Below are positions 5,649 through 63,765 of a stretch of DNA of 64,000 nucleotides, piece by piece (position 1 is the first letter of the stretch; each line of letters opens with the position of its first letter). Location of the stretch: NCBI GenBank assembly GCA_030765065.1, contig CM060978.1, positions 53,472,421 through 53,536,420 on the forward strand, read 5' to 3'. The notes beneath the pieces are model-generated. The model had not been told where the DNA came from. It did not search any database and saw only the letters and a list, made by a program, of their open reading frames with translations. The translations under genes were made by a program, and so were the position numbers. This stretch comes from Deroplatys truncata. Taxonomy: Eukaryota; Arthropoda; Insecta; Mantodea; Mantidae.

Positions 5649-6476
5649 TTACTTTCTCTACTACGTATAGTAAGTAGGGAAAGTATTGTATTCCACCCAA
5701 AAATTTGATACCGAGATTTCACCGGAAATACATGTATTGAGGCCCCCTGAAAGCATTTTTGGAAACATGTCCGTATGTGTGTGTGAACAGCATAACTCAG
5801 AAACGAACAGTCGGATAAACACCAAACTTCATATATGGTTCTGTATCTTCTACAGATGCAACACGAAGGTTTTCAAGAAAATACCCCTACCCCAGATTAC
5901 CCTTTACATGGAACATTTTTCGAAAATTGTAATTTTCTCAAAAATGGATCTAAAGATTTTGATTAAAATATCATAAGTTTAAGATATTTTTATGACAAAT
6001 AAAATGTATATGTTGAATTTTCTGGGAATGTCTCTAAAAGTATTCTTCATTATGAACGACTTTTGCATAACTGGTAAACCATAAGAGATAGACAAAATTT
6101 TACTAGACTAAAAATGTAGATCGCGTTAAAATATACAATTTATGTCATATACGTGTTTTTTGTTGAGTGGACCATTTTCGAGATATTGCTTGTTATTCCC
6201 TTAAATTTTCCAATGCTTATACTTTTTCTCAAATGGAAATTCGTTATTAATTTTTTTTGTCCTGGTAATTCAAAGAGAATGGAATACTTCACATATCAAC
6301 CAGCTCTTAAAATATTTAACTATTGCTTAAAACCTAGCAATTCTCCTTGAATCTACAAGAAAATTAGCAATAAGATTAACATCTCGATATTCAATTAACG
6401 TGAAGCATAAGCGTTTGTAAAAATAGTTTGTACAAGAGTAGAGAAAGTCATGTGAGTGTAACACATCAGATTTTTT
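5649..6476 (+). repeat. HINE-A, complete reference copy
   Basis: It starts ACTTTCTCTACTACGTATAG and ends GTGTAACACATCAGAT, with T runs on both sides. The 12-nt ACTTTCTCTACT at the 5' end recurs in inverse complement about 30 nt from the 3' end (GAGTAGAGAAAGT). Between that and the end a small hairpin can form (ATGTG, 7-nt loop, CACAT). A short TGTGTGTG microsatellite lies about 125 nt in. No ORF of significance is present. The architecture (subterminal inverted repeats, internal microsatellite, 3' hairpin, T-rich site) is that of DINE-1-like Helentron-associated elements; the assignment is inference. Another copy follows head-to-tail with no spacer. Confidence 0.8.
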
Positions 6477-9566: not shown

Positions 9567-10380
9567 AAAAAATCTGATGTGTTACACTCACATGAATTTC
9601 TCCACTCTTGTACAAACTATTTTTACAAACGCTTATTCACCATATGCTTCATGTTAATCGATATGTTAATCTTGTTGCTAATTTTCTTGTAGATGCAAGG
9701 GGAATATGCTAGGTTTTAAGCGATAGTCAAATATTTTAAGAGCTGGTTGCTATGTGGAGTATTCCATTCTGTTTGTAATACCAGGACAAAAAATATCAAT
9801 AGCGAATTTACATTTGAGAAAAAGTATATGTATTAGAAAATTTAAGGTAATAACAAGCAATATCTCGAAAATGGTTCACTCAACAACAAAAATGTATATG
9901 ACATAAATTGTGTATTTTAACGCGATCTACATTTTTTGTGTAGTAAAATTTTGTCTATCTCTTATGGCTTACCAGTTATGTTAAAGTCGTTCACAATGAA
10001 GAATACTTTTGTAGACATTCCCAGAAAATTCAAGATATACATTTCATTTGTCATGAAAATATCTTAAACATATGATATTTTAATCAAAATCGTTAGAGCA
10101 ATTTTTGAGAAAATAAAAATTTTTGAAAAATGTTCCATGTAAAGGGTAATCTGGGGTGGGGAGATTTTCTTGAAAACCTTCGTGTCGCATCTCTGGAAGA
10201 TACTGAACCTAAATACTTGGTTTGGTGTTTATCCGACTGTTCACGGACATGTTTCCAAAAATCCTTTTTTTTTGGATTCAGGGGGCCACAAAATATATAT
10301 TTCCGGTGAAATTCGATATCGAATTTTTGGGTGGAATACAATAATTCCCCTACTTACTCTACGTAGTAGAGAAAGTAAAA
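9567..10380 (-). repeat. HINE-A, near-complete minus copy
   Basis: It starts at AATCTGATGTGTTACACTCA and ends at GTAGTAGAGAAAGTAAAAA. The microsatellite has been lost together with the flanking CAGCATAACTC block (around 10238), so this copy is internally deleted. Confidence 0.8.
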
Positions 10381-12387: not shown

Positions 12388-12526
12388 TTACCTTCTCTAC
12401 TACGTATAGTAAGTAGGGGAAGTATTGTATTCCATGAAAAATTCGATGCCGAGATTTCACCGGAAATATATGTTTTGAGGCCTCCTTAATCCAAAAAACG
12501 GATTTTTGGAAACATGTCCGTGTGTG

Positions 12527-12567
<41 letters not shown>

Positions 12568-13246
12568 TCTGTGAACAGCATAACTCAGAAACGAACATTC
12601 GGATAAACACCAAACTTGGCATTTAGGTTCAGTATCTTCCAGAGATGCGACACGAAGGTTTTCAAGAAAATCCACCCACATTACCCTTTATATGGAACAT
12701 TTTCGAAAATTTTAATTTTCTCAAAACTGACTAACGATTTTGATTAAAACATCATATGTTTAAGATATTTTCATGACAAATGAAATGTATATCTCAAATT
12801 TTCTTGGAATGTCTCCAAAAGTATTCTTCATTGTGAACCACTTTTGCATAACTGATAAACCATAAGAGATAGACAAAATGTTACTACACAAAAATGTAGA
12901 TAGCGTTAAAATACACAATTTATACCAATTACTTTTGTTTTTTTAGTGAACCATTTTCAAGATATTGCTTGTTATTCCCTTAAAATTTCTAATGCTTTTT
13001 CTCAAACGGGATTTCGTTATTCATTTTTTTTGTCCTGGAAATGCAAAGAGAATGGAATGCGCCTTATAGCAACCAGCTCTTAAAACATTTGACTATCGCT
13101 TAAATTCTACCATATTCGCTTTTCATCTATAATAAAATTAGCAATAAGATTAACATCGCGATTAACATGAAGTATATGGAGAATAAGCGTTTGTAAAAAT
13201 AGTTTGTACAAGAGTAGAGAAAGTCATGTGAGTGTAACACATCAGA
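12388..13246 (+). repeat. HINE-A, complete copy with expanded (GT)n
   Basis: It starts TTCTCTACTACGTATAGTAAG and ends GTGTAACACATCAGA. The internal microsatellite at about 12521-12568 is a GT array with single interruptions. Confidence 0.85.
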
Positions 13247-13515
13247 ATATTTAAGTAAGAACCGTTTTGTTATAGCACACGAAATATATTAGTTTTTCTA
13301 GCTGTGCCGTTGTTTCTGCATGAGACATTATTTCACTCACACACACTCAAAATACGGGAACAAAAACAATATGGTACAGATTCTTAACTCTGTAAGGAAC
13401 AGATCAACACTGATCGTAGTAATGGTAGCTGGAAGCTGGCGATTTCTATGCTACCTGTGGTGCTAACATAACCGTATACTGTATCAACTGTATACCGCAC
13501 ATTTTCGTGTTAAAA

Positions 13516-14379
13516 AAAATCGTATGTGTTACACTCACATGACTTTCTCTACTCTTGTACAAACTATTTTTACAAACGCTTATTCTCCATATGCGTCATG
13601 TTAATCGAGATATCAAGATGTTAACCTTATTGCTAATTTTCTTGTAGATGCAAGGAGAATTGGTAGGCCTTAAGTTATAGTCAAATATTTTAAGAGCTGG
13701 TTGCTATGTGGAGTATTGCATTCTCTTTGCATTACCAGGACAAAAAAGTGAATAACGAATTTGAGAAAAAGTATAAATATTGGAAAATTTAAGGAAATAA
13801 CAAGCAATATCTCGAAAATGGTTCACTCAACAACAACAAAAATGTATATGACATATATTATATACTTTAACACGATCTACATTTTTTGTGTAGTAAAATT
13901 TTGTCTATCTCCTATGGTTTACCAGTTATGCAAAAGGTGTTCACAATGAAGAATACTTTTGGAAACATTCCCAGAAAATTCGAGGCATACATTTCATTTG
14001 TCATGAAAATATCTTAAACGTATGATATTTTAATCAAAATCGTTAAGAGCCGTTTTTGAGAAAATTAAAATTTTCTAAAAATGTTCCATGTAAAGGTAAT
14101 CTGGGGTGGGTGGATTTTCTTGAAAACCTTCGTGTCGCATCTCTGGAAGATACTGAACCTAAATACCAAGTTTGGTGTTTATCCGACTGTTCGTTTCTGA
14201 GTTATGCTGTTCACAGACACACACACACACACACACACACATACCTACACATGCATGTTTCCAAAAATGCTTTTTTTGTATTCAGGGGATCACAAAACAT
14301 GTATTTCCGGTGAAATCTCGGTATCGAATTTCTGGGTGGAATACAATACTTCCCCTACTTACTATAGAGAAAGTAAAAA
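13516..14379 (-). repeat. HINE-A, complete minus copy
   Basis: It starts ATCGTATGTGTTACACTCAC and ends CTATAGAGAAAGTAAAAA; CGTAG has been lost from the 5' terminus. The (CA)n lies at about 14217-14241. The 260 bp between this and the previous copy (13247-13515) holds nothing recognisable. Confidence 0.85.
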
Positions 14380-20090: not shown

Positions 20091-20092
20091 TT

Positions 20093-20221
20093 ACTTTCTC
20101 TACTACGCATAGTAAGTAGGGGAAGTATTGTATTCCACCCAAAAATTCAATACCGAGATTTCGCCGGAAATACATGTTTTGAGACCCCCTGAATCCAAAT
20201 AAACATTTTTGGAAACATATT

Positions 20222-20280
<59 letters not shown>

Positions 20281-21803
20281 AGCATAACTCAGAAACAGTC
20301 GGATAAACACCAAACTTGGTATTTAGATTCAGTATCTTCCAGAGATGCGACACGAAGGTTTTCAAGAAAATCCCCCACCCCAGATTACCCTTTACATGGA
20401 AACTTTTAATTTTCTCGAAAATGGCTTTAACGATTTTGATTAAAATATCATACGTTTAAGATATTTTCATGAGAAATGAAATGTATATCTCGAATTTTCT
20501 GGGAATGTCTCCAAAAGTATTCTTCATTGTGAACCACTTTTTTATAACTGGTAAACCATAAGAGATAGATAAAATGTTAATACACAAAATGTAGATCGCG
20601 TTAAAATACACAATTTATGTCATATACATTTTTTTTTGTTGAGTGAACCATTTTCGAGATATTGCTTGTTATTCCCTTAAATTTTCCAATACTGATATAC
20701 TTTTTTTCAAATTCGTTATTCATTTTTTACTTTCTCTACTACGTATAGTAAGTAGGGGAAGTATTGTATTCCACCCAAAATTTCGATACCGAGATTCACC
20801 GGAAATACATGTTTTGAGACTCACTGAATCCAAAAAAGCATTTTTGGAAACATGTCCGTGTGTGTGTCTGTCTGTGTGTCTGTGAACAGCATAACTCAAA
20901 AACGAACAGTCGGATAAACACCAAACTTGGTATTTAGGTTCAGTATCTTTCAGAGATGCGACACGAAGGTTTTCAAGAAAATCCCCCCTGCCCAGACTAC
21001 CCTTTACATGGAACATTTTTCGAACATTTTAATTTTCTCAAAAACGGCAATAACGATTTTGATTAAAATATCATATGTTTAAGATATTGTCATGACAAAT
21101 AAAATGTATATCTCGAATTTTCTGGGAATGTCTCCAAAAGTATTCTTCATTATGAACGACTTTTTCATAACTGGTAAACCATAAGAGATAGACAAAATTT
21201 TACTACACGAAAAATGTAGAGCGCGTTAAAATACACAATTTATGTCATATACATTTCTTTTGTTGAGTGAACCGTTTGCGAGATATTGCTTGTTATTCCC
21301 TTAAATTTTCCAATACTCATACTTTTTCTCAAATTCGTTATTCATTTTTTTATGTCCTGGACATGCATAGAGAATGGAATGCGCCACATAGCAACCAGCG
21401 TTAAAATATTTGACTATCGCTTAAAATCTACCATATTCCCCTTGCATATACAAGAAAATTATCAATAAGATTGACATCTTGATATCTCCATTAACATGAA
21501 GCATATGGAGAATAAGCGTTTGTAAAAATAGTTTGTACAAGAGTAGAGAAAGTCATGCGAGTGTAACACATCAGATTTTTTATGTCCTGGACATGCAAAG
21601 AGAATGAAATGCGCCACATAGCAACCAGCTCTTAAAAGATTTGACTATCGGTTAAAACCTACCTATTCCCCTTGCACCTACAAGAAAATTAGCAATAAGA
21701 TTAACATCTCGATTAACATGAAGCATATGGGGAATAAACGTTTGTAAAAATAGTTTGTACAAGAGAAGAGAAAGTCATGTGAGTATAACACATCAGATCT
21801 TTT
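20093..21803 (+). repeat. HINE-A inserted into HINE-A (three-part block)
   Basis: 20093-20725 is a 5' two-thirds copy ending GTTATTCATTTTT. 20726-21575 is a complete copy (TACTTTCTCTACTACGTATA to AACACATCAGAT). 21576-21803 is the remaining 3' end (TTATGTCCTGGACATGC to ATAACACATCAGAT). The outer pieces fit together, so the middle copy is nested in the outer one at an oligo-T site. Confidence 0.85.
20224..20278 (+). repeat. (TG)n microsatellite inside HINE-A
   Basis: An uninterrupted TG array of 27 or so units at the standard position of the family's internal microsatellite. It lies between TTGGAAACAT and ACAGCATAACTC. Confidence 0.95.
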
Positions 21804-24353: not shown

Positions 24354-25188
24354 TTTTACTTTCTCTACTACGTATAGTAAGTAGGGGAAGTATTGTATTC
24401 CACCTAAAAATTAGATACCGAGATTTCACCGGAAATATATGATTTGAGGCCCCCTGAATCCAATTTTTTTTTGGAAACATGTGCATGTGTGTGTGTCTGT
24501 TCTGTGAACAGCATAACTCAGAAACGAACACTCGGATAAACACCAAACTTGGTATTTAAGTTCAGTATCTTCCAGAGATGCACACCAAGGTTTTCAAGAA
24601 AATCCCTCCACCCCAAATTACCCTTTACAATGAACATTTTTCGAAAATTTTAATTTTCTCAAAAATGGCTAACGATTTTGATTAAAATATCACATGTTTA
24701 AGGTATTTTCATGATAAATGAAATGTATATCTCGAATTTTCTGGAAATGACTCCAAAAGTATTCTTCATTGTGAACGACTTTTGAATAACTGGTAAACCT
24801 AAAAGATAGACAAAATTCTACTACACAAATAATGTAGATCGCGTTAAAATAAGCAATTTATGTCATATACATTTTTTTATTGAGTGAACCATTTTCGAGA
24901 TATTGCTTGTTATTACCTTAAATTTTCCAATACTTATACTTTTTCTCAAATGTAAATACGCTATTCATTTTTTTGTCTTGGTAATGCAAAGAGAATGGAA
25001 TACTCCACATAGCAACCAGCTCTGAAAATATTTGACTATCGCTTAAAGCCTAGCAATTTCCCTTGCATCTACAAGAATATTAGCAATAAGATTAACATAT
25101 CGATTAACATGAAGCATATGGAGAACAAGCGTTTGTAAAAATAGTTTGTACAAGAGAAGAGAAAATCATTTGAATGTAACACATAAGA
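24354..25188 (+). repeat. HINE-A, complete copy
   Basis: From TTTACTTTCTCTACTACGTA to GTAACACATAAGAT. The microsatellite is very short (GTGTGTGTGTCTGT), at about 24486-24499. Confidence 0.85.
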
Positions 25189-25209
25189 TTTTTAACATTC
25201 TAGCACATT

Positions 25210-28012: not shown

Positions 28013-29065
28013 TCTAATCAGACACACATTCGTTCGTGCACACCTTCGTGCATATTTATAACACTCTTTCTTGAGAATTAGTCACGTAATCCAGTGATTA
28101 CTTGCGTGTTATTTTAAGCGCTCAGTGACGCGCTTGTGTAAGATTAGCGGCAATCGTGAGGGGTTTTGACGGTAAGCATTTTAGTGACTCACGGCAACTT
28201 ATGCGTGTACTAGTTTCTTTTATTGCGGAAAGAGTTATTTCGAACCAAAAAATTGATACTGCAGATCTTAACGGGTACAAGACTTCAATTTTTATGATTT
28301 CGATTGCTACGATTCATAATCGGTGCCATTCTTCATCTTCAAAAGCTCAGGGATTAGATCACATTAAATTTCTCAGTCAATTTTAACTGGTGTCATGCTT
28401 TCGCACTACCCTGCGCATACCCACGAAATATCTCATAACCAACCACTGTAGCAGCCGGCAGCAGAATCAACAGCAGATACAGCCCGGCAACAGATCCTCG
28501 CCCAAGTTAGATAAAAGTTGGTGTTTTACAGTGGCCAAAACATTGTTTTATTTATGTCGAATTGTTTTTTAAAACACAGTATTTGGAACACTAGCAGGTA
28601 CTCCTCCAGAAATCTTACCAAGAAAAAATCGTTCATAAGATGGTAAAATGCAGTTACGCCTTCTAAATTTTTAATCTTAAACCTCCTTGATTACAGCTAC
28701 CCCCTCACACACTGCCCTGCAATTTCACTAGAGCGAAACCTCGGCTTTAAGATCGTTATTTTAGTCCTTTGTGGGTCAACGCTGATTGCGGTGCATCTAC
28801 AATGTCCTCGAGCAAAACATTTACTGCAGTTCCACTTTTCATTAAGACATGAACTTGGACTGTTTTTCCACTGACGCAAAGTAGTAATCAACAACGACTC
28901 TCCTGACCTTCGTTACTAGGAATACCAGGTGATTTGGTTTCATGCAACCCTTAGTATATGCTCAGTACCAGTTCTGTTAAAGAATTAATATAACGATATG
29001 GTTTGGGTTGACACTCTAGAAGACCAACAGTCCATAAGATAAAACTAGAGACAGGAGAATGTAAA
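28013..29065. other. Unassigned ~1 kb stretch
   Basis: One of the longest parts of the window without an identified repeat. A 65-codon minus frame at 28697-28894 contains CSKCFARGHCRC, a Cys/His cluster without the spacing of a known zinc finger. No splice-supported gene could be built here. Confidence 0.35.
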
Positions 29066-29762
29066 AAAATCTGATGTGTTACACTCACATGACTTTCTCT
29101 ACTCTTGTACAATCTATTTTTACAAACGCCTATTCTCCATATGCTTCATATTAATCGAGATATCGAGATGTCAATCTTATTTGTAATTTTCTTGTAGATG
29201 CAAGGGGAATATGGTAGCTTTTAAGCGATAGTCAAATATTTTATCGCTGGTTGCTATGTGGCTCATTCCATTCTCTTTGCATGTCCAGGACATAAAAAAC
29301 GAATAACGAATTTGAGAAAAGTATAAGTATTGGAAAATTTAAGGAAATAACAAGCAATATCTCGAAAACGGTTCACTCAACAAAAAAACTGTATATGATA
29401 TAAGTTGTGTATTTTAACGCGATCTACATTTTTTGTGTAGTAAAATTTTGTCTATCTCTTATGGTTTACCAGTTATGCAAAAGTCGTTCATAATGAAGAA
29501 TACTTTTGGAGACATTCCCAGAAATTTCGAGATATACACTTCATTTCTCATGACATTATCTTAAACATATGATATTTTAATCAAAATCGTTAGAGCCATT
29601 TTTGAGAAAATTAAAATTTTCGAAAAATGTTCCATGTAAAGGGTAGTCTGGGGTAGGGGGATTTTCTTGAAAATCTTCGTGTCGCATCCCTGGAAGATAC
29701 TGAACGTAAATACCAAGCTTGGTGTTTATCCGACTGTTAGTTTTTGAGTTATGCTGTTCACA

Positions 29763-29819
<57 letters not shown>

Positions 29820-29960
29820 ACACACGGACATGTTTCCAAAAATGCTTTTTTTGGATTCAGGAGGTCTCAAAACATGTATTTCCGGTGAAATCTCGGTATC
29901 GAATTTTTGGGTGGAATGCAATACTTCCCCTACTTACTATACGTAGTAGAGAAAGTAAAA
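29066..29960 (-). repeat. HINE-A, complete copy with ~60-bp (CA)n
   Basis: From AATCTGATGTGTTACACTCA to CGTAGTAGAGAAAGTAAAAA. The CA array at about 29762-29825 is among the longest in the window. It preserves both subterminal motifs. Confidence 0.85.
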
Positions 29961-30059: not shown

Positions 30060-30393
30060 ATCTCTTGTGCTGCATTCACATGACTTTCTCAAACGTTTAT
30101 TAGTGGGTATACAAATGATTCCTAAGAGTTTATTTTCCTATTTACATAATTTCAATCGAGATAAACTTTTCCAGAAGTAGCTACATTACACATTTATTTA
30201 TAGATACAAAGGGAACAGCGACAGTCAAATGTTTAAGAACTGGATGCTATATGCTGACATTAAAATTCAAACTCTTTCCACGACATCACGAGAAAAAAGT
30301 GAATGTCGTCATGAATTTAAAAGAAGATAAAGGTACTGAACAATTTGAACTATGAATAACATACATCTCAGAAATGGCTGACGCCACAAGAAA
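30060..30393 (-). repeat. Old HINE-A, 3' part
   Basis: Minus copy from TGTGCTGCATTCACATGACT to AATGGCTGACGCCACAAG, old subfamily (GTTTAAGAACTGGATGCTAT block). The next HINE-A begins immediately. Confidence 0.7.
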
Positions 30394-31229
30394 AATCTGA
30401 TGTGTAACACTCACATGACTTTCTCTACTCTTGTACAAACTATTTTTACAAACGCTTATTCTCCATCTACTTCATGTTAATCCAGATAAACATTTGCAGA
30501 CTATCTTATTGCTAATTTTCTTGTAGATGTAAGGGGAATATATATTTACAAGGGCAATATAGAAATACAGTAGCCTTTAAGCACATACGTATCTCTTAAT
30601 AGCTGGTTGCTAGGTGCAGCACCATTCTCTTTGCCGCAGGTTAATACTCTTTGCATATACAAGACAAAAAAATGAATAACGAATTCCCATTTAAGAAAAT
30701 AAGTATTGAAAAACTTAAGGGAATAACAAGCAAAAATTTTGTCTATCTCTAATGGTTTACCAGTTATGCAAAAGTCGTTCACAATGAAGAATAATTTTGG
30801 AGACATTCCCAGAAAATTCAAGATATACATTTAATTTTTCATGAAAATATCTTAAACATATGATATTTTAATCTAAATCGTTAGAGCCATTTTTGAGAAA
30901 ATTAAAATTTTCGAGAAATGTTGCATGTAAAGTGTAATCTGGGATGGGAAGGATTTTCTTGAAAACCTTCTTGTCGCATTTCTGGAAGATACTGAACATA
31001 AATATAAAGTTTGGTGTTTATCCGACTATTCGTTTGAGTTATGCTGTTCACAGACAGACACTCACACACAGACAGATAGACAGACACACACAAGGACATG
31101 TTTCCAAAAATGCTTTTTTTTGGATTCAGGGGGTCTCAAAACATGTATTTCCGGTGAAATCTTGGTATCGAATTTTTGGGTGGAATACAATACTTCCCCT
31201 ATTTACTATACCTAGTAGAGAAAGTAAAA
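30394..31229 (-). repeat. HINE-A, complete minus copy
   Basis: From AATCTGATGTGTAACACTCA to CCTAGTAGAGAAAGTAAAAA. It carries the variant 3' block with TTTAAGCACATACGTATCTC also seen at 1-213, 56270-56350 and 63330. The microsatellite is a mixed CACA/GACA tract at about 31051-31091. Confidence 0.85.
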
Positions 31230-40200: not shown

Positions 40201-40960
40201 AAAAAAAACTGTTGTGTTTCACTCACATGACTTTCTCTGCTCTTGTACAAACTATTTCTACAAAGGCTTATTCTCCATATGCTTCATGTTAATCAAGATA
40301 TCGAGATGTTAATCTTATTGCTAATTTTCTTGTAGATGCAATGGGAATTGGTAAGCTTTAAGCGATAGTCAAACGTTTTAAGAGGTGGTTGCTATGTGGA
40401 GTATTCCATTCTCTTTGAATTACCAGGACAAAAAAAATGATCAACGAATTCCCATTTGAAAAAATAAGTATTGAAAAATTTAAGGGAATAACAAGCAATA
40501 TCTCGAAAACGGTTCACTCAACAAAAAATGTATATGACATAAATTGTGTATTTTAACAGGATCTACATTTTTTGTGTAGTAAAATTTTGTCTATCTCTTA
40601 TGGTTTACCAGTTATGCAAAAGTCGTTCACAATGAAGAATACTTTTGGAGACATTCCCAGAAAATTCAAGATATACATTTATTTGTCATAAAATATCTTA
40701 AACATATGATATTTTAATCAAAATCGGTAGAGCCATTTTTGAGAAAATTAAAATTTACGAAAAATCTTCCATGTAAAGGGTAATCTGCGGTGGGAGGGAT
40801 TTTCTTGAAAAGCTTCGTGTCGCATCTCTGGAAGATACTGAACCTAAATACCAAGTTTGGTGTTTATCCGACTGTTCGTTTCTGAGTTATGCTGTTCACA
40901 GACAGACACACAAACACACAGACAGACAGACAGACAGACATGTTTCCAAAAATGCTTGTT
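40201..40960 (-). repeat. HINE-A, minus copy lacking its 5' end
   Basis: From ACTGTTGTGTTTCACTCACA to TTTCCAAAAATGCTTGTTTG; the 5' terminal 120 bp are absent. The microsatellite at 40900-40940 is a mix of CACA and (GACA)n. Confidence 0.8.
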
Positions 40961-42266: not shown

Positions 42267-43821
42267 CCGGGTGTTTCAGAAATACTTTTACAAACTTCCG
42301 GTATGAGTTCCCCACACCAAAAGAAGGAAAAAGGTTCATATAAACATATGTCCCATAATCCTTGGTTTTCGCGTTATTCCTGTCACAATGAAAGTGAGAG
42401 TACAACGGCCTTCGGGGTCCAACCTCAAAACCTCATTTCTGTATGCATTCATAGAAGGGGTTGACCCATTGTATTACATACGGTATATGGCGAAGTGTTG
42501 CAATGGAGACTTTTTACGTTTGTCATTTGTCATTAGTCTGTCTTCAACGTTTCAATTGTGTACATGTAGTGAGTTAACTGCACGTGTTTCGTTCCACCAT
42601 GGCTGGATATTCATTTCGTGAACAGGCAGACATGATTTTTATGTATGGTCGCGCGAATGGTAATGGACGCGAGGCTGCACGGCACTATCCGATGGACTTT
42701 CCAGACCGAAGATAACCGAGTCATCCAACCTTTGTCGCTGTTTATCGTCGCCTTGTTGAGACAGGAACCGTTGCACCACGGACTATTGATCGAGGAAGAC
42801 CAAGAGTTATTCGTACGCTGGAACGCGAAGAACAGATGTTAAAGTGTGTCGAAGACGAACCAGGTATCAGTACAAGACAATTGGCTGTGGCATCTGGTAC
42901 ATCACACGTGACAGCATGGAGAGTACTTCACGAGCAGCTCCTGTATCCATATCTTATTCAACGTGTGCAGTGCCTATCGCCTGCCAATTATGCACCACGG
43001 GATAACTTTTGCCAATGGTTTGTAGCACAAACAGCCAATTCATTGTTCGTCACGTCAGTTTTGTTTATAGACGAGGCAATATTTGGGAGGGATGGAGTTA
43101 CTAATTTTCATAACGTACACGTATGGGCAGATCGTAATCCTCATGCTGTACTTCAGGTTAGACATCAGCAACAGTTTAGTCTGAATGTGTGGGCTGGCAT
43201 TGCAAGTGGCTGTCTGGTAGGTCAATACGTTTTATCAGCACGTCTTACTGGCGCTGTCTACAGGGACTTTATCCAGCACACTCTTCCCGACTTACTTCAC
43301 GAATATGTGCCACTGCAAATAAGAAAACACATGTGGTTTATGCATGATGGGACTCCGGCACACTTTAGTCGCATTGTTCGAGATGCACCAACTAGTATCT
43401 ACCATGGTCGATGGATAGGCAGAGGAGGAACCGTTCCATGGCCTGCACGTTCTCCCGACCTCAATCCTGTGGATGTTACCTCTGGGGGCATCTTAAATCG
43501 TTGGTTTATGGAGCAGTCATCCCGGATGCAGAAACGCTTCATCGACGTGCCATGAAAGCCTGCGAGACCATTCGACACCATCCCGGAGTTTTGACATGGT
43601 GCAACATTCCATGATTCAACGAGTACAGGCATGCATAGAAGCAAGAGGCCATTTCGAGCATTTATTATGAGTTTTGTATGTTACAAGTGTACCACTGTGT
43701 AGAACACCTCCTAACGAGAAAACAAAGGATTATGGAACATATGTTCATATGAACTTTTTTCCTTCTTGTGGTGTAAGGAACTCATATAAGAAGTTTGTAA
43801 AAGTATTTTTGGAACATCCTG
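42267..43821 (+). mobile_element. DD41D mariner-like transposon, 107-bp TIRs
   Basis: 1555 bp, flanked by TA (42265-42266, 43822-43823), inserted in LTR-B copy 6. The 107-bp terminal inverted repeats (42267-42373 and 43715-43821) share ATACTTTTACAAACTTC, ATGAGTTCC, AGAAGGAAAAA and CATATGT blocks. It encodes one broken transposase. Confidence 0.9.
42599..43670 (+). pseudogene. DD41D transposase pseudogene
   Basis: About 357 codons if its lesions are disregarded, from ATG at 42599 (MAGYSFREQADMIF) to TGA at 43668-43670. It has an N-terminal helix-turn-helix with ISTRQLAVASGTSHVTAWRV (about residues 88-107) and a DDE domain. The catalytic carboxylates are in FIDEAIFG, FMHDGTPAHF and SPDLNPVD; I count 41 residues between the second and third Asp. 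Lesions: TAA at 42713-42715 (a single C-to-T would explain it), a 1-base loss near 43470, and another in the T run near 43590. With three lesions it is inactive but young. Confidence 0.9.
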
Positions 43822-46042: not shown

Positions 46043-46607
46043 AGCGTTTGTAAGAGTATTTTGTGGATAGATAAGAATAAGCGATATGGGGTGGGTAAAT
46101 TAATGTAAATGCTTCACATCAAGACCAAGATGAAACACAGCCGTACTCTATTATGAAAAACGCTTGGTAGGCGGGACGATATCTCTGTTAGATGAAGAAA
46201 CAGAAGACGTCTTATATCCATGTTTCGTGTTGAGGACGAAAAGAACGATCTCTTTGCAAGTAATTTTAGACTCCATCCTTTGACAAGACGTGGTGTTGAA
46301 TATCAAGAACCTGCTTCCTTCTCTCGTGGCCTCAAGATATTTAAACTGATAAATATGTGCCAGAAAACTGGCGTCTTAGGCATATCACCTCATCTCCTTG
46401 CTTCCACAAAAGAAAAGAATTAATAGAAACGGAATGAAATGGGTTGCTAAAGGTTGTGACAATGATAATTTGAAAAAGAGTTTAAATATACACGGTTAAA
46501 CTAAAAGCAAATGTAAAACAGTCTGTTGTGATACATTCCCATAGCTTTCTCTAACCTCTATCTTTGCTAATGGGTAAACAGGTCAGTCTTACTAAAACTT
46601 ATTACTT
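46043..46607. other. Unassigned stretch
   Basis: A 67-codon open frame at 46220-46423 (+) resembles nothing I know. No repeat seen. Confidence 0.35.
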
Positions 46608-47385
46608 TCTCTACTACGTATAGTAAGTAGGGGAAGTATTGTATCCCACCCAAAAATTCGATACCGAGATTTCACCGGAAATACATGTTTTGAGACCCCC
46701 CGAATCCAAAAAAAGCACTTTTGGAAACATGTCCGTGTGTGTGACTGTGTGTCTGTGAACAGCATAACTCAGAAACGAACAGTCGGATAAGCACCAAACT
46801 TGGTATTTAGGTTCAGCATCTTCCAGAGATGCGACACAAAGGTTTTTCAAGAAAATTCCCCCACCCCAGATCACCCTTTACATGAAATATTTCTCGAAAA
46901 TTTTAATTTTCTCAAAAATGACTAACGATTTTGATTAAAACATCATTTGTTTAAGATATTTTCATGACAAATGAAATGTTTATCTCTAATTTTTTGGAAA
47001 TGTCTCCAAAAGTATTCTTCATTGTGAGCGACTTTTGCATAACTGGTAAACCATAAGAGATAGACAAAATTTTACTAAACAAAAAATGTAGATCGCGTTA
47101 AAATACACAATTTATGTCATATATATATTTTTTTGAGTGAACCATCTTAGAGATATTGCTTGTTATTCCCTTAATTTTTCCAATAGTATTCATTGTTTTT
47201 GTCCTGGTAATGAAAAGACAATGGAATACTCCACATAGCAACCAGCTCTTAAAATATTTGACTATCGCTTAAAGCCTAGCAATTCCCCTTGCATCTACAA
47301 GAAAATTAGCAATAAGGTTAACATCTCGATTAACATGAAGCATATGGAGAATAAGCGTTTGTAAAAATAGTTTCTACAAGAGTAA
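46608..47385 (+). repeat. HINE-A, nearly complete
   Basis: From ACTTTCTCTACTACGTATAG to the AATAGTTTCTACAAGAGTAA block. The terminal ~35 bp are replaced by an inverted old copy (tail-to-tail junction at 47385/47386). Confidence 0.8.
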
Positions 47386-49160: not shown

Positions 49161-50337
49161 CAGCATAACTCAGAAACGAACAGTCGGAAAAACACCAAAC
49201 TTGGTATTTAGGTTCAGTATCTTCTAGAGATGCGACACGAAGGTTTTCAAGAAAATCCTCATACCCCAAATTACCCTTTACATGGAACTTTTTTCGAAAA
49301 TTTTAATTTTCTCAAAAATGGCTCTAACGACTTTGATTAAAATATTATATGTTTAAGATAAATGAAGTGTATGTCTCGAATTTTCTGGGAATGTCTCCAA
49401 AAGTATTCTTCATTGTGAACGACTTTTGCATAACTGGTAAACCATAAGAAATAGACAAAATTTTACTACACAAAAAATGTAGATCGCGTTAAAATATTAC
49501 CCTTGCAACTACAAGGAGATTAGCAATAAGATTAACATCTCGATATCTCGATTAACATGAATCATATGGAGAATAAGCGTTTGTAAAAATAGTTTGTACA
49601 AGAGTAGAGAAAGTCATGTGAGTGTAACACCTCAGATTTTTACTTTCTCTACTACGTATAGTAACCAGGGGAAGTATTGTATTCCACCCAAAATTCGATA
49701 CCGAGATTTCACCGGAAATACATGTTTTGAAACCCCCTGGATCCAAAAAGAGCATTTTTGGAAACATGTCCATGAGTGTGTCTCTGTGTGTGTCTGTCTG
49801 TCTGTCTGTCTGTCTGTGAACAGCATAACTCAGAAACGAACAGTCGGATAAACACCAAACTTGGTATTTAGGTTCAGTATCTTCCAGAGATGCGACACGA
49901 AGGTTTTCAAGAAAATCCCCCACCCCAGACTACTCTTTACATGGAACATTTTTCGAAAATTTTAATTTTCTCAAAAATGGCTCTAACGATTTTGATTAAA
50001 ATTACATATGTTTAAGATATGTTGTATACATTTTTTTGTTGAGTGTACCATTTTCTAAATAGTACTTGTTATTCCCTTAAATTTTCCAATACTTATACTT
50101 TTTCTCAAATTCGTTATTCATTTGTTTTTTGTCCTGGTAATGCAAAGAGAATGGAATACTTTACATAGCAACCAGCTCTTAAACGCTTAAAGCCAATTCC
50201 CCTTGCATCTACAAGAAAATTAGCAATAAGATTAACATCTCGTTATCTCGATTAACATGAAGCAAATGGAGAATAAGCGATTGTAAAAATAGGTTGTACA
50301 AGAGTAGAGAAAGTCATGTGAGTGTAACACATCAGAT
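48987..50337 (+). repeat. Two head-to-tail HINE-A copies
   Basis: 48987-49637 (ACTTTCTCTACCATGTATAG to GTAACACCTCAGATTTT) has a deletion near 49495. 49638-50337 (ACTTTCTCTACTACGTATAG to GTAACACATCAGAT) has one near 50022. They are joined with no spacer. Microsatellites: (GT)n 49110-49158 and (TCTG)n at about 49793-49816. Confidence 0.85.
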
Positions 50338-50970
50338 TTTTCTTCTGAAGATGCTCCTTTCTTGGATACAGGACACATGTGACGTAGTTTTATTTTACAA
50401 TAATTTAATAAACTTAATTTTATAAAGTTAGATATTCAGAACAGGTTGATGGAAAGTTCGACACATGGATGGATTCGTCAAAATATCATACTGATGTCCG
50501 GTTACGTTAGTACTGTCTAAAGCACTAGTCAGCATGCATCTCGAGCATTTAAACTTAAAAGTATTATGGCAGCTCGCGCTCTGCTAGACCCGTGTTAACA
50601 GTAATCTGTGACACTCATTTAGCCCAATCTTCAGCTACACCGCAAGTTCGCCGGGACATGGGAATGCCAACCTTCTTCGCACCCTACGTTAACTTGTCCC
50701 TTGCAGCTTTATCGTTGATAGATGTGTTTATAGTAATGTAGAGTAGAACATCAGCTGACTAAATGTTTCTGAAATGATTATTGCAGTGTAGTGTAGTACT
50801 ATAGGTAATTAAACTAAATTTGGAAACGGAATTACACGTCAATAATTTGCCACCGTTCACCACTGCTCCCTCTGACCACTCCACTGCCAAGCTTTGCTCT
50901 TCGCCTGGAAATCTGAACTATATACATCCCCATGCTCTGTTCACAGACAGACAGTCAAACATATCCGCTT
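50338..50970. other. Unassigned stretch
   Basis: No recognisable gene or repeat, and base composition near average. It might belong to host non-coding sequence. Confidence 0.35.
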
Positions 50971-51721: not shown

Positions 51722-52545
51722 TTTTACTTTCTCTAATACGTAGAGCAAGTAGGGGAAATATTACATTCCACCCAAAAATTCGATACGTGATATTATCGGA
51801 AATACAGGTTTTGAGGTCCTCCCAATCAAAAAGAAATTCATTTTTTGATAAAGGTTGGTGTGTGTCCGTGTGGATGTGTGTCTGTAAACAGTGTAACTCA
51901 AAAACGAAAACTCGGATAAATACCAAAATTGGTGTCTATTTCAGTAACTTTAAAAGATGCAACATTAAGATTTTCAAGAAAATCCCCCACCCTAGACTAC
52001 CTTTACATGGAACATTATCTGAAAATTTTGATTTTCTCAAAAATGGCTCTAACGATTTCGTTTAAGATATATTTATGACAAATAAAATGTATATCATGAA
52101 TTTTCTGGGAATGTCTCCAAAAGTCCTGTTTATTCTGAATCTTTTTGCATAGCTGGTAAACCGTAAGAGATACACAATTTTACTACACAAAAATGTAGAT
52201 CTCGTTAAAACACACAATTTATGTCATATACATTTTTTTTGCCGAGGAACCATTTCCAAGATATTCCTTGTTATTTGTTTAAATTTTCCAATACTTTTAC
52301 TTTTCCTAAAATGTGTTTTTTTATTTTTTTTATGTCCTGGACAGGCAAAGAGAATGGAATGCTCCACATAGCAACCAGCTCTTAAAAGATTTGACTATCG
52401 CTTAAAGTCTACCAAGTCCCCTTGCATCTACAAGAAAATTAGCAATCTCGATTAATATGAAGCCAGTGAAAAATAAGCGTTTGTAAAAATAGCTTGTACA
52501 AGAGTAGAAAAATTCATGTGAGTGCAATATGTCAGATTTTTTAAC
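51722..52545 (+). repeat. HINE-A, complete copy between possible receptor exons
   Basis: From TTTTTACTTTCTCTAATACG to GTGCAATATGTCAGAT. The microsatellite is reduced to GTGTGTCCGTGTGGATGTGT at 51859-51878. If the neighbouring exons are real, this copy sits in an intron. Confidence 0.85.
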
Positions 52546-55634: not shown

Positions 55635-56521
55635 TTACTTTCTCTACTACGTATAGCACGTAGGGGAAGTATTGTATTCCACCCAAAAATTCGATACCGA
55701 GATTTCACCGGAAGTACATGTTTTGAGCCCCCCTGAATCCAAAAAAATTACTTTTGGAAACACGTCCGTGAGTGTGACTGAACAGCATAACCCAGAAACG
55801 AACAGTCAGATAAACACCAAACTTGGTATTTAGGTTCAGATCTTCCAGAGATGCGACACGAAGGTTTTCAAGAAAATCCCCCTACCCCAAATTACCCTTT
55901 ACATGGAACATTTTTCGAAAATTTTAATTTTCTCATAAATGGCTCTAACGATTTTGATTAAAATATCATATGTTTAAGATATTTTCATGACAAATAAAAT
56001 GTATATCTTGAATTTCCTGGGAATGTCTCCAAAAGTATTCTTCATTGTGAACGACTTTTGCATAACTGGTAAACCATAAGAGAAGACAACATTTTACTAC
56101 ACAAAAAATGTAGATCGTGTTAAAATACACAATTTATGTCCTATAAATTTTTTTGTTGAGTGAACCATTTTCGAGATATTGCTTGTTATTCCCTTAAATT
56201 TTTCAATACTTATTTTCTCAAATGGGAATTCGTTATTAATTTTTTTTGTCTTGGATATGCAAAGAGTATTAATCTGTGGCAAAGAGAATGGTGCTGCACC
56301 TAGCAACCAGCTATTAAGAGATATGTATGTGTTTAAAGGCTACTGTATTTCTATATTGCCCTTGTAAATATATATTCCCCTTACATCTACAAGAAAATTA
56401 GCAATAAGATAAGAGTCTGCAAATGTTTATCTTGATTAACATGAAGTAGATGGAGAATAAGCGTTTGTAAAAATAGTTTGTACAAGAGTAGAGAAAGTCA
56501 TGTGAGTGTAACACATCAGAT
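55635..56521 (+). repeat. HINE-A, complete copy
   Basis: From TTACTTTCTCTACTACGTAT to GTAACACATCAGATTTTT. The microsatellite is nearly lost (GTGAGTGTGACTG at 55768). It carries the variant 3' block also found at 1 and 30540. Confidence 0.85.
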
Positions 56522-57275
56522 TTTTTATCATGTAAATGTCTTTAATACATTATTTTTTAATAAAATTCGTTAGAGCTATGTTTTAAAAAATTGAAATTTT
56601 AAAAAAATGTTCCATGTATAGTGTTTTTGGGAGTGAAGGAATTTTCTTGAAAATATTCGTGTCACATCTTTGGAAGGTATACTGAACCTAAATACCAAAC
56701 GTAGCGTTTATGCGACTATTTGTTTTTGAGTTATGCTGTTCACAGACACAATTATAGAACTTTTTATAAGAATTCTGTTTTTTGGATTTAGGAGCCTATA
56801 AGATGTATTTGTTTTTGAAATGTCAGTATGGAATTTTTGGATGGAATACAATACTTCCACTGCTTATTATAGTAGTAGAGAAAGTAAAAACGATAGCAGT
56901 TTATCTCTTGAGAAAAGCAATAAGCGTTTGAAACTTTAAACCAATTACAGAAGATATATCGGAAAAGGATATCGCTAAAAAGTTTAGCATAAATTGCGTG
57001 CTTCGAAGAGATCTACTTTTTTGTATAGTAAGGTTTTGTCTATCTCTTACGGTTTACCAGTTATACAGAAGCCATTCCAAATGAAGAGGACTTCACAGGC
57101 ATACCCAGAAAATTGTAGATATATATTTTATTTGTCATGCAAATATCTTAAATATATATTATTTTAATCAAAACCGTTAGAGCAATTTTTGAGAAAATAA
57201 AAAATAATGAAAAAAGTCCCATGTAAAGAATACTTCAAGGTGGGGGACTTTTCTTCAAAACCTTCGTATCTCACA
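56522..57275 (-). repeat. HINE-A pieces, minus strand
   Basis: 56522-56889 runs from the TCATGTAAATGTCTTTAA block to AGTAGTAGAGAAAGTAAAAA. 56905-57275 is an older piece from AAGCAATAAGCGTTTG to CTTCAAAACCTTCGTATC. The second ends at a fold-back point. Confidence 0.7.
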
Positions 57276-57806: not shown

Positions 57807-58662
57807 TTTTTATTTTCTATACTACGTATAGTAAATAGGAGAAATATTGTATTCGACCCAAAATTTCGATACCGATATTTCTCCGGAAATACATATCTTG
57901 AGGCCCCCTGAATCCAAAAAACACTTTTAGAAGACATTTCCGTGTGTGTGTCTATTTGTGAACAGCTTAACTCAAAAATGAAACGTCGGATAAATATCAA
58001 ACTTGGTATTTGTATTCAGTATCTTTCAAAGATGCGACAGGAAGATTTTTACGAAAATTTCTCCACCCCAGACTAGCCTTAACATAGAACATTTTTCGAA
58101 ATTTTTTATTTTCTCAGAAATGAGTAACGATTTTGATTAAAATATCATATATTTAAAACATTTTCATGAGAAATAAAAAATACTTCTTGAATTTTAGGAT
58201 AATGTCCCCAAAATTCCTGTTCTTTCTGAATGGCTCTTGCATAACAGGTAAACCGTAAGAGAGCACAAATTTTTCTACACAAAAAATGCAGAGCTCGTTT
58301 AAACACAAAATTTATGTCATGTACAGTTTTTTTGTGGAGTGAATAATTTCCGAGACATTCCTTGTTATTTGTTTGAATTTTCCAATACTAACTTTTTCTC
58401 AAATGGGAATTCTTTATTCGTTTTATTTATATCCTGGACATGCAAAGAGAATGGAATACTCCACATAGCAACCAGCTCTTAAAATATTTTTCTATAGCTT
58501 AAATCCTACCACATATTCCTTGCACCTACAAGAAAATTAATAATAATTTTAGTTTTTGCAAATGCTTATCTCGATTAACATGAAGTAGATGGATAATAAG
58601 CGTTTGTAAAAATAGTTTGTACAAGAGCAGATAAAACACGTGAGTGCAACACATCAGATTTC
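57807..58662 (+). repeat. HINE-A, complete copy
   Basis: From TATTTTCTATACTACGTATA to GTGCAACACATCAGATT, joined head-to-tail to the previous one. Short GTGTGTGTGTC at about 57942-57952. Confidence 0.8.
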
Positions 58663-59369
58663 TTTTTCATAATTTTGTACAGGTATACCACAGTAACATA
58701 TTGTAGATCTTGATAAAATACAGAATTAATTAAGTTTTTTTAGCTTCAGCAATTTCCAATATGTTCATTCCTGTTTTGATTTTCATGTCATGGAAAGACT
58801 CTAGAATAGCAACGCCAACATACAGCGAATCGCGTTTTAATGATTTAATATCACTTCGGCCTCCCCGCAAGCGTTTAACTTGATTTTGGTTCAATAAACA
58901 TCTTCAAGTAATACTGAAGTGTACTAGGCCTACTATACATGTCACATGGTATAAAAGCAGGTTAAAAGCTGTGCAACCTAATAAAAAGCTGAGCACATGC
59001 ACTATGTTTCCCTGTGTCCGCACTTCCAACGCGTGTAACGAAATGGATAGCTGCACATTTCCAAACAGACAAGCGTCATTAACAATCAATTGTACACATA
59101 CTGGGTTGTTTGGGAAATTCAATTAACTTTAGCTGTGCGACGCGTAGGCAATCTGGCGGCCCTAATCAGTTCTATACCTAAGGGATTAACGTCCTCTACT
59201 GCGAATCGAGCAACTGTGAAATTCTCTGGCATCTCTTTCACAAGTTAACGTGATATTTAGAGCAGTTGCAGGAAGATTCAGCACTAATTTAACAACTTTC
59301 CCCATGTCAGTCCGTACACCTGTGAGCGAGAAAAAAAGGTAGTCCATTCTACTGTTTACATATAGCAAG
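58663..59369. other. Mostly unassigned stretch
   Basis: The first ~130 bp look like heavily decayed HINE-A (CATATTGTAGATCTTGAT, CAATTTCCAATATG, TCATGGAAAG). The remainder is not recognised. Confidence 0.4.
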
Positions 59370-62656: not shown

Positions 62657-63526
62657 TTACTTTCTCTACTGCGTATAGTAAGTAGGGGAAGTACTGTATT
62701 CCACCCAAAAATTCGATACCGAGATTTCACCGGAAATACATGTTTTGAGACGCCTTGAATCCAAAAGAAAGCATTTTTGGAAACATGTCCGTGTGTGTGT
62801 CTGTGAACAGCGTAACTCAGAAACGAACAGTCGGATAAACACCAAACTTGATATTTAGGTTCAGTATCTTCCAGAGATGCGACACGAAGGCTTTCAAGAA
62901 AATCCCCCACCCCATATTATCCTTTACATGCAACATTTTTCAAAAATTTTAATTTTCTCAAAAATGGGTAACGATTTTGATTAAAATATCATATGTTTAA
63001 GATATTTTCATGACAAATAAAACGTATATCTTGAATTTTCTGGGAATGTCTCCAAAAGTATTCTTCATTGTGAACGACTTTTGGTAAACTGGTAAACCAT
63101 AAGAGATAGACAAAATTTTACTACACAACAAATGTAGATCGCGTTAAAATACACAATTTATGTCATATACATTTTTTGTTGAGCGAACCATTTTCGAGAT
63201 ATTGCTTGTTATTTCCTTAAATTTTTCAATACTTATTTTCTCAAATGGGAATTCGTTATTCATTTTTTTGTCTTGGATATGCAAAGAGTATTAATCTGTG
63301 GCAAAGGGAATGGTGCTGCACCTAGCATCCAGCTAGGTGCTTAAAGGCTACTGTATTTCTATATTGCCCTTGTAAATATATATTCCCCTTACATCTACAA
63401 GAAAATTAGCAATAAGAGAGAGTCTGCAAATGTTTATCTCGATTAACATGAAGCATATGGAGAATAAGCGTTTGTAAAAATAGTTTGTACAAGAGTAGAG
63501 AAAGTCATGTGAGTAACACATCAGAT
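62657..63526 (+). repeat. HINE-A, complete copy
   Basis: ACTTTCTCTACTGCGTATAG to GAGTAACACATCAGATT. The microsatellite is only GTGTGTGTGTCTG (62791). The variant 3' block GTGCTTAAAGGCTACTG is present. Confidence 0.85.
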
Positions 63527-63765
63527 TTGTTTTGTCCTTGTAATGCAAAGAGAATGGAATACTGCACATAGCAACCAGCTCTTAAAATATTTGACTATCG
63601 CTTAAAGCCTACCAATTTTCCTTGCATCTATGTACAAGGAAATTAGCAATAAGATTAACATCTCTATATCTCGAATAACATGCAGCATATGGAGAATAAG
63701 CGTTTGTAAAAATAGTTCGTACAAGGGTAGAGAAAGTCATGTGGGTGTAACACATCAGATTTGTT
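63527..63765 (+). repeat. HINE-A 3' end, tandem to the previous copy
   Basis: From TTTTGTCCTTGTAATGCAAA to GTAACACATCAGATTTG. Only the last ~240 bp of the element are present. Confidence 0.8.

Follow-up and report, generated by a model that had tools for sequence, protein, structure and literature searches.

Helentron-associated repeats of very high copy number in the genome of Deroplatys truncata, Helentrons with the same ends, and nesting of the family in its own T-tract

The analysed window comprises 64,000 bp (C4:53472421-53536420) of the 4.29-Gb assembly of Deroplatys truncata and holds numerous copies of one repeat, for which the copy at 5649-6476 (plus strand; K2P 0.053 to the consensus) is taken as the example. 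This copy carries a subterminal repeat at its 5' end, an inverse copy of it about 28-30 nt from the 3' end, an ATGTG/CACAT hairpin and a T-run on both sides, and thus displays the anatomy (12-nt subterminal inverted repeat, 3' hairpin, T junctions) given in a preliminary description of this DNA. The ends read T(n)ACTTTC... and ...CAGAT(n), with the hairpin ATGTG...CACAT placed directly before CAGAT(n). In the palindrome ACTTTCTCTACT...AGTAGGGGAAGT the 5' 12-mer makes up the left arm; it is found at both ends, a palindromic subterminal inverted repeat within the 12-15 bp of Helentron-associated elements (HINEs), by which name the repeat is called here. As folded DNA both structures are weak (5' palindrome -4.9 and 3' hairpin -2.3 kcal/mol, computed with no shuffle control). 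The majority-rule consensus of 851 bp, built from 12 window copies, contains a tract of eight Ts (T8) at 619-626 and a further T-run at the 3' end. None of the six window frames of at least 130 aa lies inside 5649-6476, in line with the lack of coding capacity noted earlier, while three of these frames overlap other HINE copies in part. The window gave no Rfam match at gathering scores. At 42716-43555 a 279-aa open frame showed a weak match to HTH_Tnp_Tc3_2, a Tc-type transposase domain (E 4e-4, below cut-off).

Further full copies, identified by BLASTN and by their ends, lie at 9567-10378 (minus), 12388-13252 (plus), 13514-14376 (minus), 24356-25193 (plus), 29064-29958 (minus), 30391-31227 (minus) and 51724-52542 (plus). 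BLASTN also revealed a copy without its first ~125 bp (40202-40909, minus) and one without its 3' end (consensus 1-792; 46602-47384, plus). Others are stacked on or nested in their own kind. The 5' part of an outer HINE (1-608; 20091-20728, plus) is split at its internal T-tract by a full copy (20727-21581, plus; T6 on each side), after which the 3' part of the outer one (602-828) continues at 21575-21803 (plus). The full copy at 55635-56526 (plus) lies inside an antisense HINE fragment, its empty site being read from the HINE consensus, and that at 62657-63531 (plus) is followed by a HINE 3' part (602-828) at 63525-63765. At 49640-50341 (plus) a copy with an internal gap abuts the 3' end of another HINE head-to-tail, and a full copy at 57810-58664 (plus) is likewise set on the 3' end of another. 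Of the copies listed in the preliminary description, those near 29066 and 30394 had to be placed on the minus strand.

The family is abundant in the window and beyond. Allowing at most one mismatch, 43 matches to ACTTTCTCTACT were counted in the window, a number reached by none of 100 shuffles (mean 0.56). With the copy at 5649-6476 as query, BLASTN returned 58 pieces, which are not equal to copies but fit an earlier estimate of at least 45 full or partial copies in 64 kb; the end search gave 30 5' and 31 3' ends. The consensus covers 26,335 of the 64,000 bp (41.1%), the reversed consensus none, and genome-wide the exact 12-mer occurs 267,484 + 270,276 = 537,760 times, compared with 1,038 + 974 = 2,012 for the reversed sequence used as control, so that the description of an abundant family dominating the window was borne out. 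The 5'-end form TTTTACTTTCTCTACT has 208,917 genome occurrences (control 13) and the 3'-end form AACACATCAGATTTT 186,824 (control 8). The window itself is enriched: it holds 27 exact 12-mers, whereas 64 kb of the genome hold about 8 on average. From the window bases per exact 12-mer, hence from one rich window, a HINE share of about 524 Mb or 12% of the genome can be roughly extrapolated. This estimate is rough because the family is unevenly spread: 20 loci picked by Helitron_like_N matches, and hence not at random (L009-L028, 69,411 bp), are only 1.4% HINE and hold one exact 12-mer. Distances from the consensus fall into two humps: of the 24,318 bases that could be aligned, in 50 pieces of at least 150 bp, 12,497 have K2P <0.10 and 8,461 K2P >=0.20, a pattern suggestive of one young and one old wave.

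At the places listed, HINE ends look sparse over the first ~9 Mb of contig C1 compared with the genome mean, except in a tandem array with a unit of ~3,408 bp near the contig start (about 20-123 kb; L001-L008). The four array stretches compared (L001, L002, L003, L008) each include a full HINE, 91-92% identical to the consensus, and are mutually 98-99% alike, a HINE caught in a satellite. Apart from the repeat family, 99 COX1 matches were scattered over many contigs, many of them on C16 (707 Mb), and this spread suggests numerous nuclear copies of mitochondrial DNA; the COX1 stretch L049, on a 110-kb contig, has no stops under the invertebrate mitochondrial code, appears by its sequence to be arthropod and may also be a nuclear copy.

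Insertion sites were read from 11 nested insertions with HINE-like flanks, chosen from 45 paired rows; the empty sites are paralogous and not orthologous. In ten of the 11, both flanks match one continuous HINE, in which they are either contiguous or separated by Ts alone; for the remaining case (C10_86M) no paired site was obtained. One of the ten (C3_172M) shows ATT between T-run and element. Flanking non-T bases were neither gained twice nor missing, and no fixed-length duplication of non-T bases appeared in the 10 alignable cases, a T-only duplication being invisible where the target itself is a T-run. Insertion among Ts without duplication, as expected, is thus seen at these paralogous sites in 10 of the 11 cases chosen, as far as non-T bases are concerned. 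The result bears on a reading of the repeat as a MITE of a TIR DNA transposon, with the 12-nt repeats as terminal repeats bound by a DDE transposase. Such an element would likewise have inverted 12-nt repeats near both ends, copies without a long frame, like the example, and a high copy number. However, the repeats are subterminal and asymmetric, with the 3' hairpin outside them, the 10 alignable sites lack a fixed target duplication, and, decisively, an element with the same ends encodes Rep and helicase (see below). On these grounds the MITE reading was rejected as scarcely credible.

The T8 landing tract allows the same sites to be counted genome-wide. It was found intact 73,418 times, filled 18,144 times as judged by 5' junctions and 13,033 times by 3' junctions, and end-to-end junctions, in which one element directly follows the 3' end of another, number 7,283; the reversed control was 0 in all four counts. 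Counted by eye, exactly five Ts precede ACTTTC in 83 of 100 5' junctions listed, whereas among the empty sites listed a form with seven Ts ahead of ATGTCC is the most frequent, outside the C1 array as well, and seven is likewise the most frequent number at the 3' junctions listed. From these T counts it follows that about five Ts are added per insertion, which can belong to the element and make a duplication unnecessary. The filled fraction is 8.7% of the 208,917 5' ends and 7.0% of the 186,824 3' ends. This modest excess points in the same direction as the composite route considered below, although it could also reflect unequal conservation of the two half-sites. The run counts do not show that the HINE tract is favoured over other T-runs: in the window nine of 55 runs of at least seven Ts have the left flank of the HINE tract and three of 30 5' ends lie inside the tract, with a fourth nearby, and around the Helentrons described next the respective numbers are 28 of 179 and 15 of 45, the latter including seven inherited composite junctions. 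With its T8 tract and its 3' T-run, the element itself offers T-runs; its copies thus serve as targets for the family, and head-to-tail nests result.

A partner was sought in the same genome with the PF14214 (Helitron_like_N) profile, which gave at least 152 matches; among the matches listed, 18 (counted by eye) lie in open frames of at least 2,000 aa. Ten of these loci were read with their flanks and contain open frames of 2,108-2,543 aa. All ten are Helentrons of about 10 kb (9,794-10,606 bp) with one long ORF. Their first ~711 bp correspond to the 5' part of the HINE, at 86-91% identity to the consensus, and each closes with the 3' repeat and hairpin of the HINE. Over the terminal 37-39 bp, which hold this repeat and hairpin, they agree with the window copy at 95%, the 11-bp repeat core being identical, so that HINE and an autonomous Helentron of the same genome have 11 bp or more of the subterminal repeat in common at 10 of 10 loci read; over the last 60 bp, identity to the HINE consensus is 75% in all ten. 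The search for an autonomous Rep/helicase element with the same ends, one of the checks proposed at the outset, accordingly gave a partner at every long-ORF locus read. Two subfamilies can be distinguished among the ten copies, with 98.9-99.6% identity within and 96.8-97.2% between them, so that Helentron activity is recent and may be current.

The long ORF of copy C9_66M, scanned in two pieces, contains Herpes_teg_N, DUF6570, Helitron_like_N, PIF1, Pif1_2B and a C-terminal Exo_endo_phos_2 region, and thus combines Rep and a PIF1 helicase in one protein (PF14214 and PF05970, both above cut-off). Its helicase part matches PIF1-type helicases best among solved structures (8bnv, E 9.6e-31), with Helraiser (7lcc) at E 2.7e-24. 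PF14529 (Exo_endo_phos_2) was matched over its full length at E 4.4e-5 and 23.8 bits, below the curated cut-off of 27.4, and the sequence of this part found no endonuclease among solved structures, its sole match being a putative integrase at E 0.38. GDFN and SDH motifs, which we take to be endonuclease motifs, are visible in the Helentron proteins, and a C-terminal AP-type endonuclease is a probable prediction. Both Helentron proteins compared possess the Rep motif VEFQMRGSPHEH, including the serine of G-S-P-H. This serine is described as diagnostic for Helentrons as opposed to Helitrons (Thomas et al., 2014, PMC4067079). The same two proteins differ in the number of central charged repeats of the EYKESERKRNKEYMEQAREDE type, and repeat number may explain the differences in ORF length among Helentron copies. 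At the N-terminus of the Helentron ORF the herpesvirus tegument region Herpes_teg_N was recognised in L037:6941-9997 (E 2.1e-9, 37.7 bits, cut-off 25); OTU-type proteases are named for Helentrons in the published description, and the literature search found no paper combining Herpes_teg_N with Helitron.

The second set of Helitron_like_N matches (L009-L028), which includes the best-scoring ones (up to 196 bits), mostly has internal stop codons and few HINEs nearby. It is what a derivation of the repeat from a canonical Helitron, with 5' TC, 3' CTRR and insertion between A and T, could appeal to. Yet the HINE sits in T-runs with T(n)ACTTTC... and ...CAGAT(n) at its ends, GSPH in the Rep of the partner that shares these ends is of the Helentron type, and the low HINE content of these 20 loci (one exact 12-mer in 69,411 bp, 1.4% HINE) does not place the family there. 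Since neither ends nor flanks show the canonical features, this origin was rejected and must be regarded as extremely improbable. The assignment to a DINE-1/Helentron-like class made in the preliminary description is in contrast supported by the partner with the same ends together with insertion into T-runs.

In DINE-1/INE-1 elements a GT/GTCT microsatellite stands close to the 5' end, and the copy number is very high. The family studied here resembles those of Drosophila in this layout (PMC4067079), and a closer comparison is offered by the HINEs and Helentrons of Metaseiulus, Culex and Drosophila (Thomas, Vadnagara & Pritham, 2014, PMC4067079). According to that account, these share with the present family palindromic subterminal repeats of 12-15 bp, a 3' palindrome and missing coding capacity, T-rich insertion without duplication and with variable T number, and a Rep/PIF1 partner with the same ends and the GSPH Rep motif, the endonuclease of that partner being probable in the present case. 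The 3' repeat lies ~28-30 nt from the end here and 38-60 bp in mite HINEs, which is a range for the mite and not a rule for the class (PMC4067079). A separate RPA gene is described as frequent, though not universal, in Helentrons; unlike in the Helentrons of Thomas et al., none was seen here by a frame-length check (frames of at least 70 aa ending before element position 2200 or starting after 9000; longest frame outside the main ORF 111 aa in all ten Helentrons), and the N-terminal Herpes_teg_N match is a further difference from their description. Similar to the present family, Cg_HINE of the Pacific oyster (2020, PMC7492417) is reported with HINE structure, a (GTCY)-type microsatellite and oligo-T sites without duplication. 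It has central satellite-like arrays, whereas here the core is unique in the copies read and tandem truncation occurs at one T-tract; inner copies of tandem Helitrons are often 3'-truncated, as stated in the introduction of that paper.

By the rule of Thomas et al. (PMC4067079), members of a subfamily are at least 80% identical over the last 60 bp, so that HINE and Helentron with their 75% belong to the same family, and to different subfamilies. Since the 3' ends fall below this rule, the exact parent may be outside the ten copies read, and it is conceivable that the window HINEs belong to a different Helentron with an exact 3' match, those found being cousins. Besides the 75%, the 86-91% in the 5' part would agree with this, as partner pairs reach >95% in Culex and 98% in Drosophila (Thomas et al., 2014, PMC4067079). 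On the other hand, 86-91% falls inside the 84-99.9% given for mite pairs (PMC4067079), and the last 37-39 bp, presumably the part recognised, are 95% identical to the window copy, with the 11-bp repeat core unchanged. We therefore consider a closer, separate parent unlikely, while granting it a real chance; if it existed, the class of the HINE would be the same.

Directly upstream of nine of the ten Helentrons lies a HINE piece (~1-620). Among the seven loci of one subfamily (B) its identity from locus to locus is 97.3-99.7% (gaps ignored), while comparisons involving the other two loci gave 90.4-93.4% and comparison of the subfamily-B piece with the Helentron's own 5' part 92.8-94.8%. The 60 bases on each side of the composite differ among loci, except in those set in a HINE T-tract; on the outside lie unrelated DNA, a HINE in antisense, a T-tract within a HINE or the 3' end of a further HINE. 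In six of the seven composites the matching HINE 3' half is missing or is explained by a further 5' half upstream, C4_200M having one more, unpaired HINE 3' half; in the seventh, C10_233M, the 3' half follows, and this locus could be the original nest. A near-identical upstream piece at seven loci with differing flanks indicates a mobile unit with two 5' ends and one 3' end, and most simply HINE(1-620) and Helentron move as one. That nine of ten Helentrons landed independently in the same HINE site was rejected, the upstream piece being near-identical and travelling along in seven.

The head-to-tail units of HINE(1-620) plus element might instead have arisen by unequal recombination or satellite growth and not by self-insertion with subsequent composite transposition, and true tandem arrays with a full HINE do exist in this genome (the array with the ~3,408-bp unit near the beginning of C1, in the four units compared). 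But in the cases read the break lies in the T-tract, several nests possess the corresponding 3' half beyond the insertion, and the subfamily-B junction recurs at seven loci in different surroundings with an upstream unit 97.3-99.7% identical, which makes an origin by recombination very unlikely. Self-insertion is thus preferred, and has a precedent in FoHeli, the non-canonical Helitrons of Fusarium oxysporum (2016, PMC5148889), in which self-insertion and elements with several 5' ends and one 3' end are described, and for which a route starting at the leftmost 5' end and stopping at the first 3' end was already proposed. In FoHeli the duplicated 5' part is described as typically <200 bp and as present in 'a number of' elements (PMC5148889); here it comprises ~620-680 bp, and is fused to a long-ORF element at seven of ten loci read, and one landing tract is seen with tens of thousands of junctions, filled and empty.

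It is very probable that the repeat is a non-autonomous Helentron-associated element of the DINE-1 kind, mobilised in trans by the ~10-kb Helentrons of the same genome, and that it nests and forms composites. Its mobilisation would depend on the Helentron protein with Rep, PIF1 helicase and probable endonuclease: Rep would nick the 5' end at the palindromic subterminal repeat, the helicase would peel off one strand, and replication would stop at the 3' subterminal repeat and hairpin, with a presumed role of the endonuclease in transposition. A nested element that started at the outer 5' end and stopped at the first 3' hairpin would possess two 5' ends and one 3' end, and one young Helentron subfamily (seven of the ten examined) is such a composite of HINE(1-620) and Helentron. 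The commonest young autonomous lineage among the ten read is indeed this two-headed form. More tentatively, and with a chance we put somewhat below even, growth of the family may have fed itself, copies providing their own landing sites and nests being relaunched as stretches that start at the outer 5' end and reach as far as the first 3' hairpin, so that 5'-stacking would be heritable and successful and the family perhaps among the largest of the DINE type.

Helentrons and HINEs as such are known. Our literature search found no description of this family, and the 12-mer only in four papers on other subjects by title; judged from the literature searched, it appears to be a new member whose size and composite lineage are worthy of attention. 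In the publications compared here, work on HINE and Helentron insertion relied on modest sets of empty sites, whereas in this genome tens of thousands of examples of one T8 target can be compared, some empty and others filled, and the same genome also holds near-identical autonomous copies with long open frames. Thus target choice, changes in T number, start and stop rules and the formation of composites could become statistically measurable. The findings suggest a simple route by which a rolling-circle element may fill a large part of a multi-gigabase genome.
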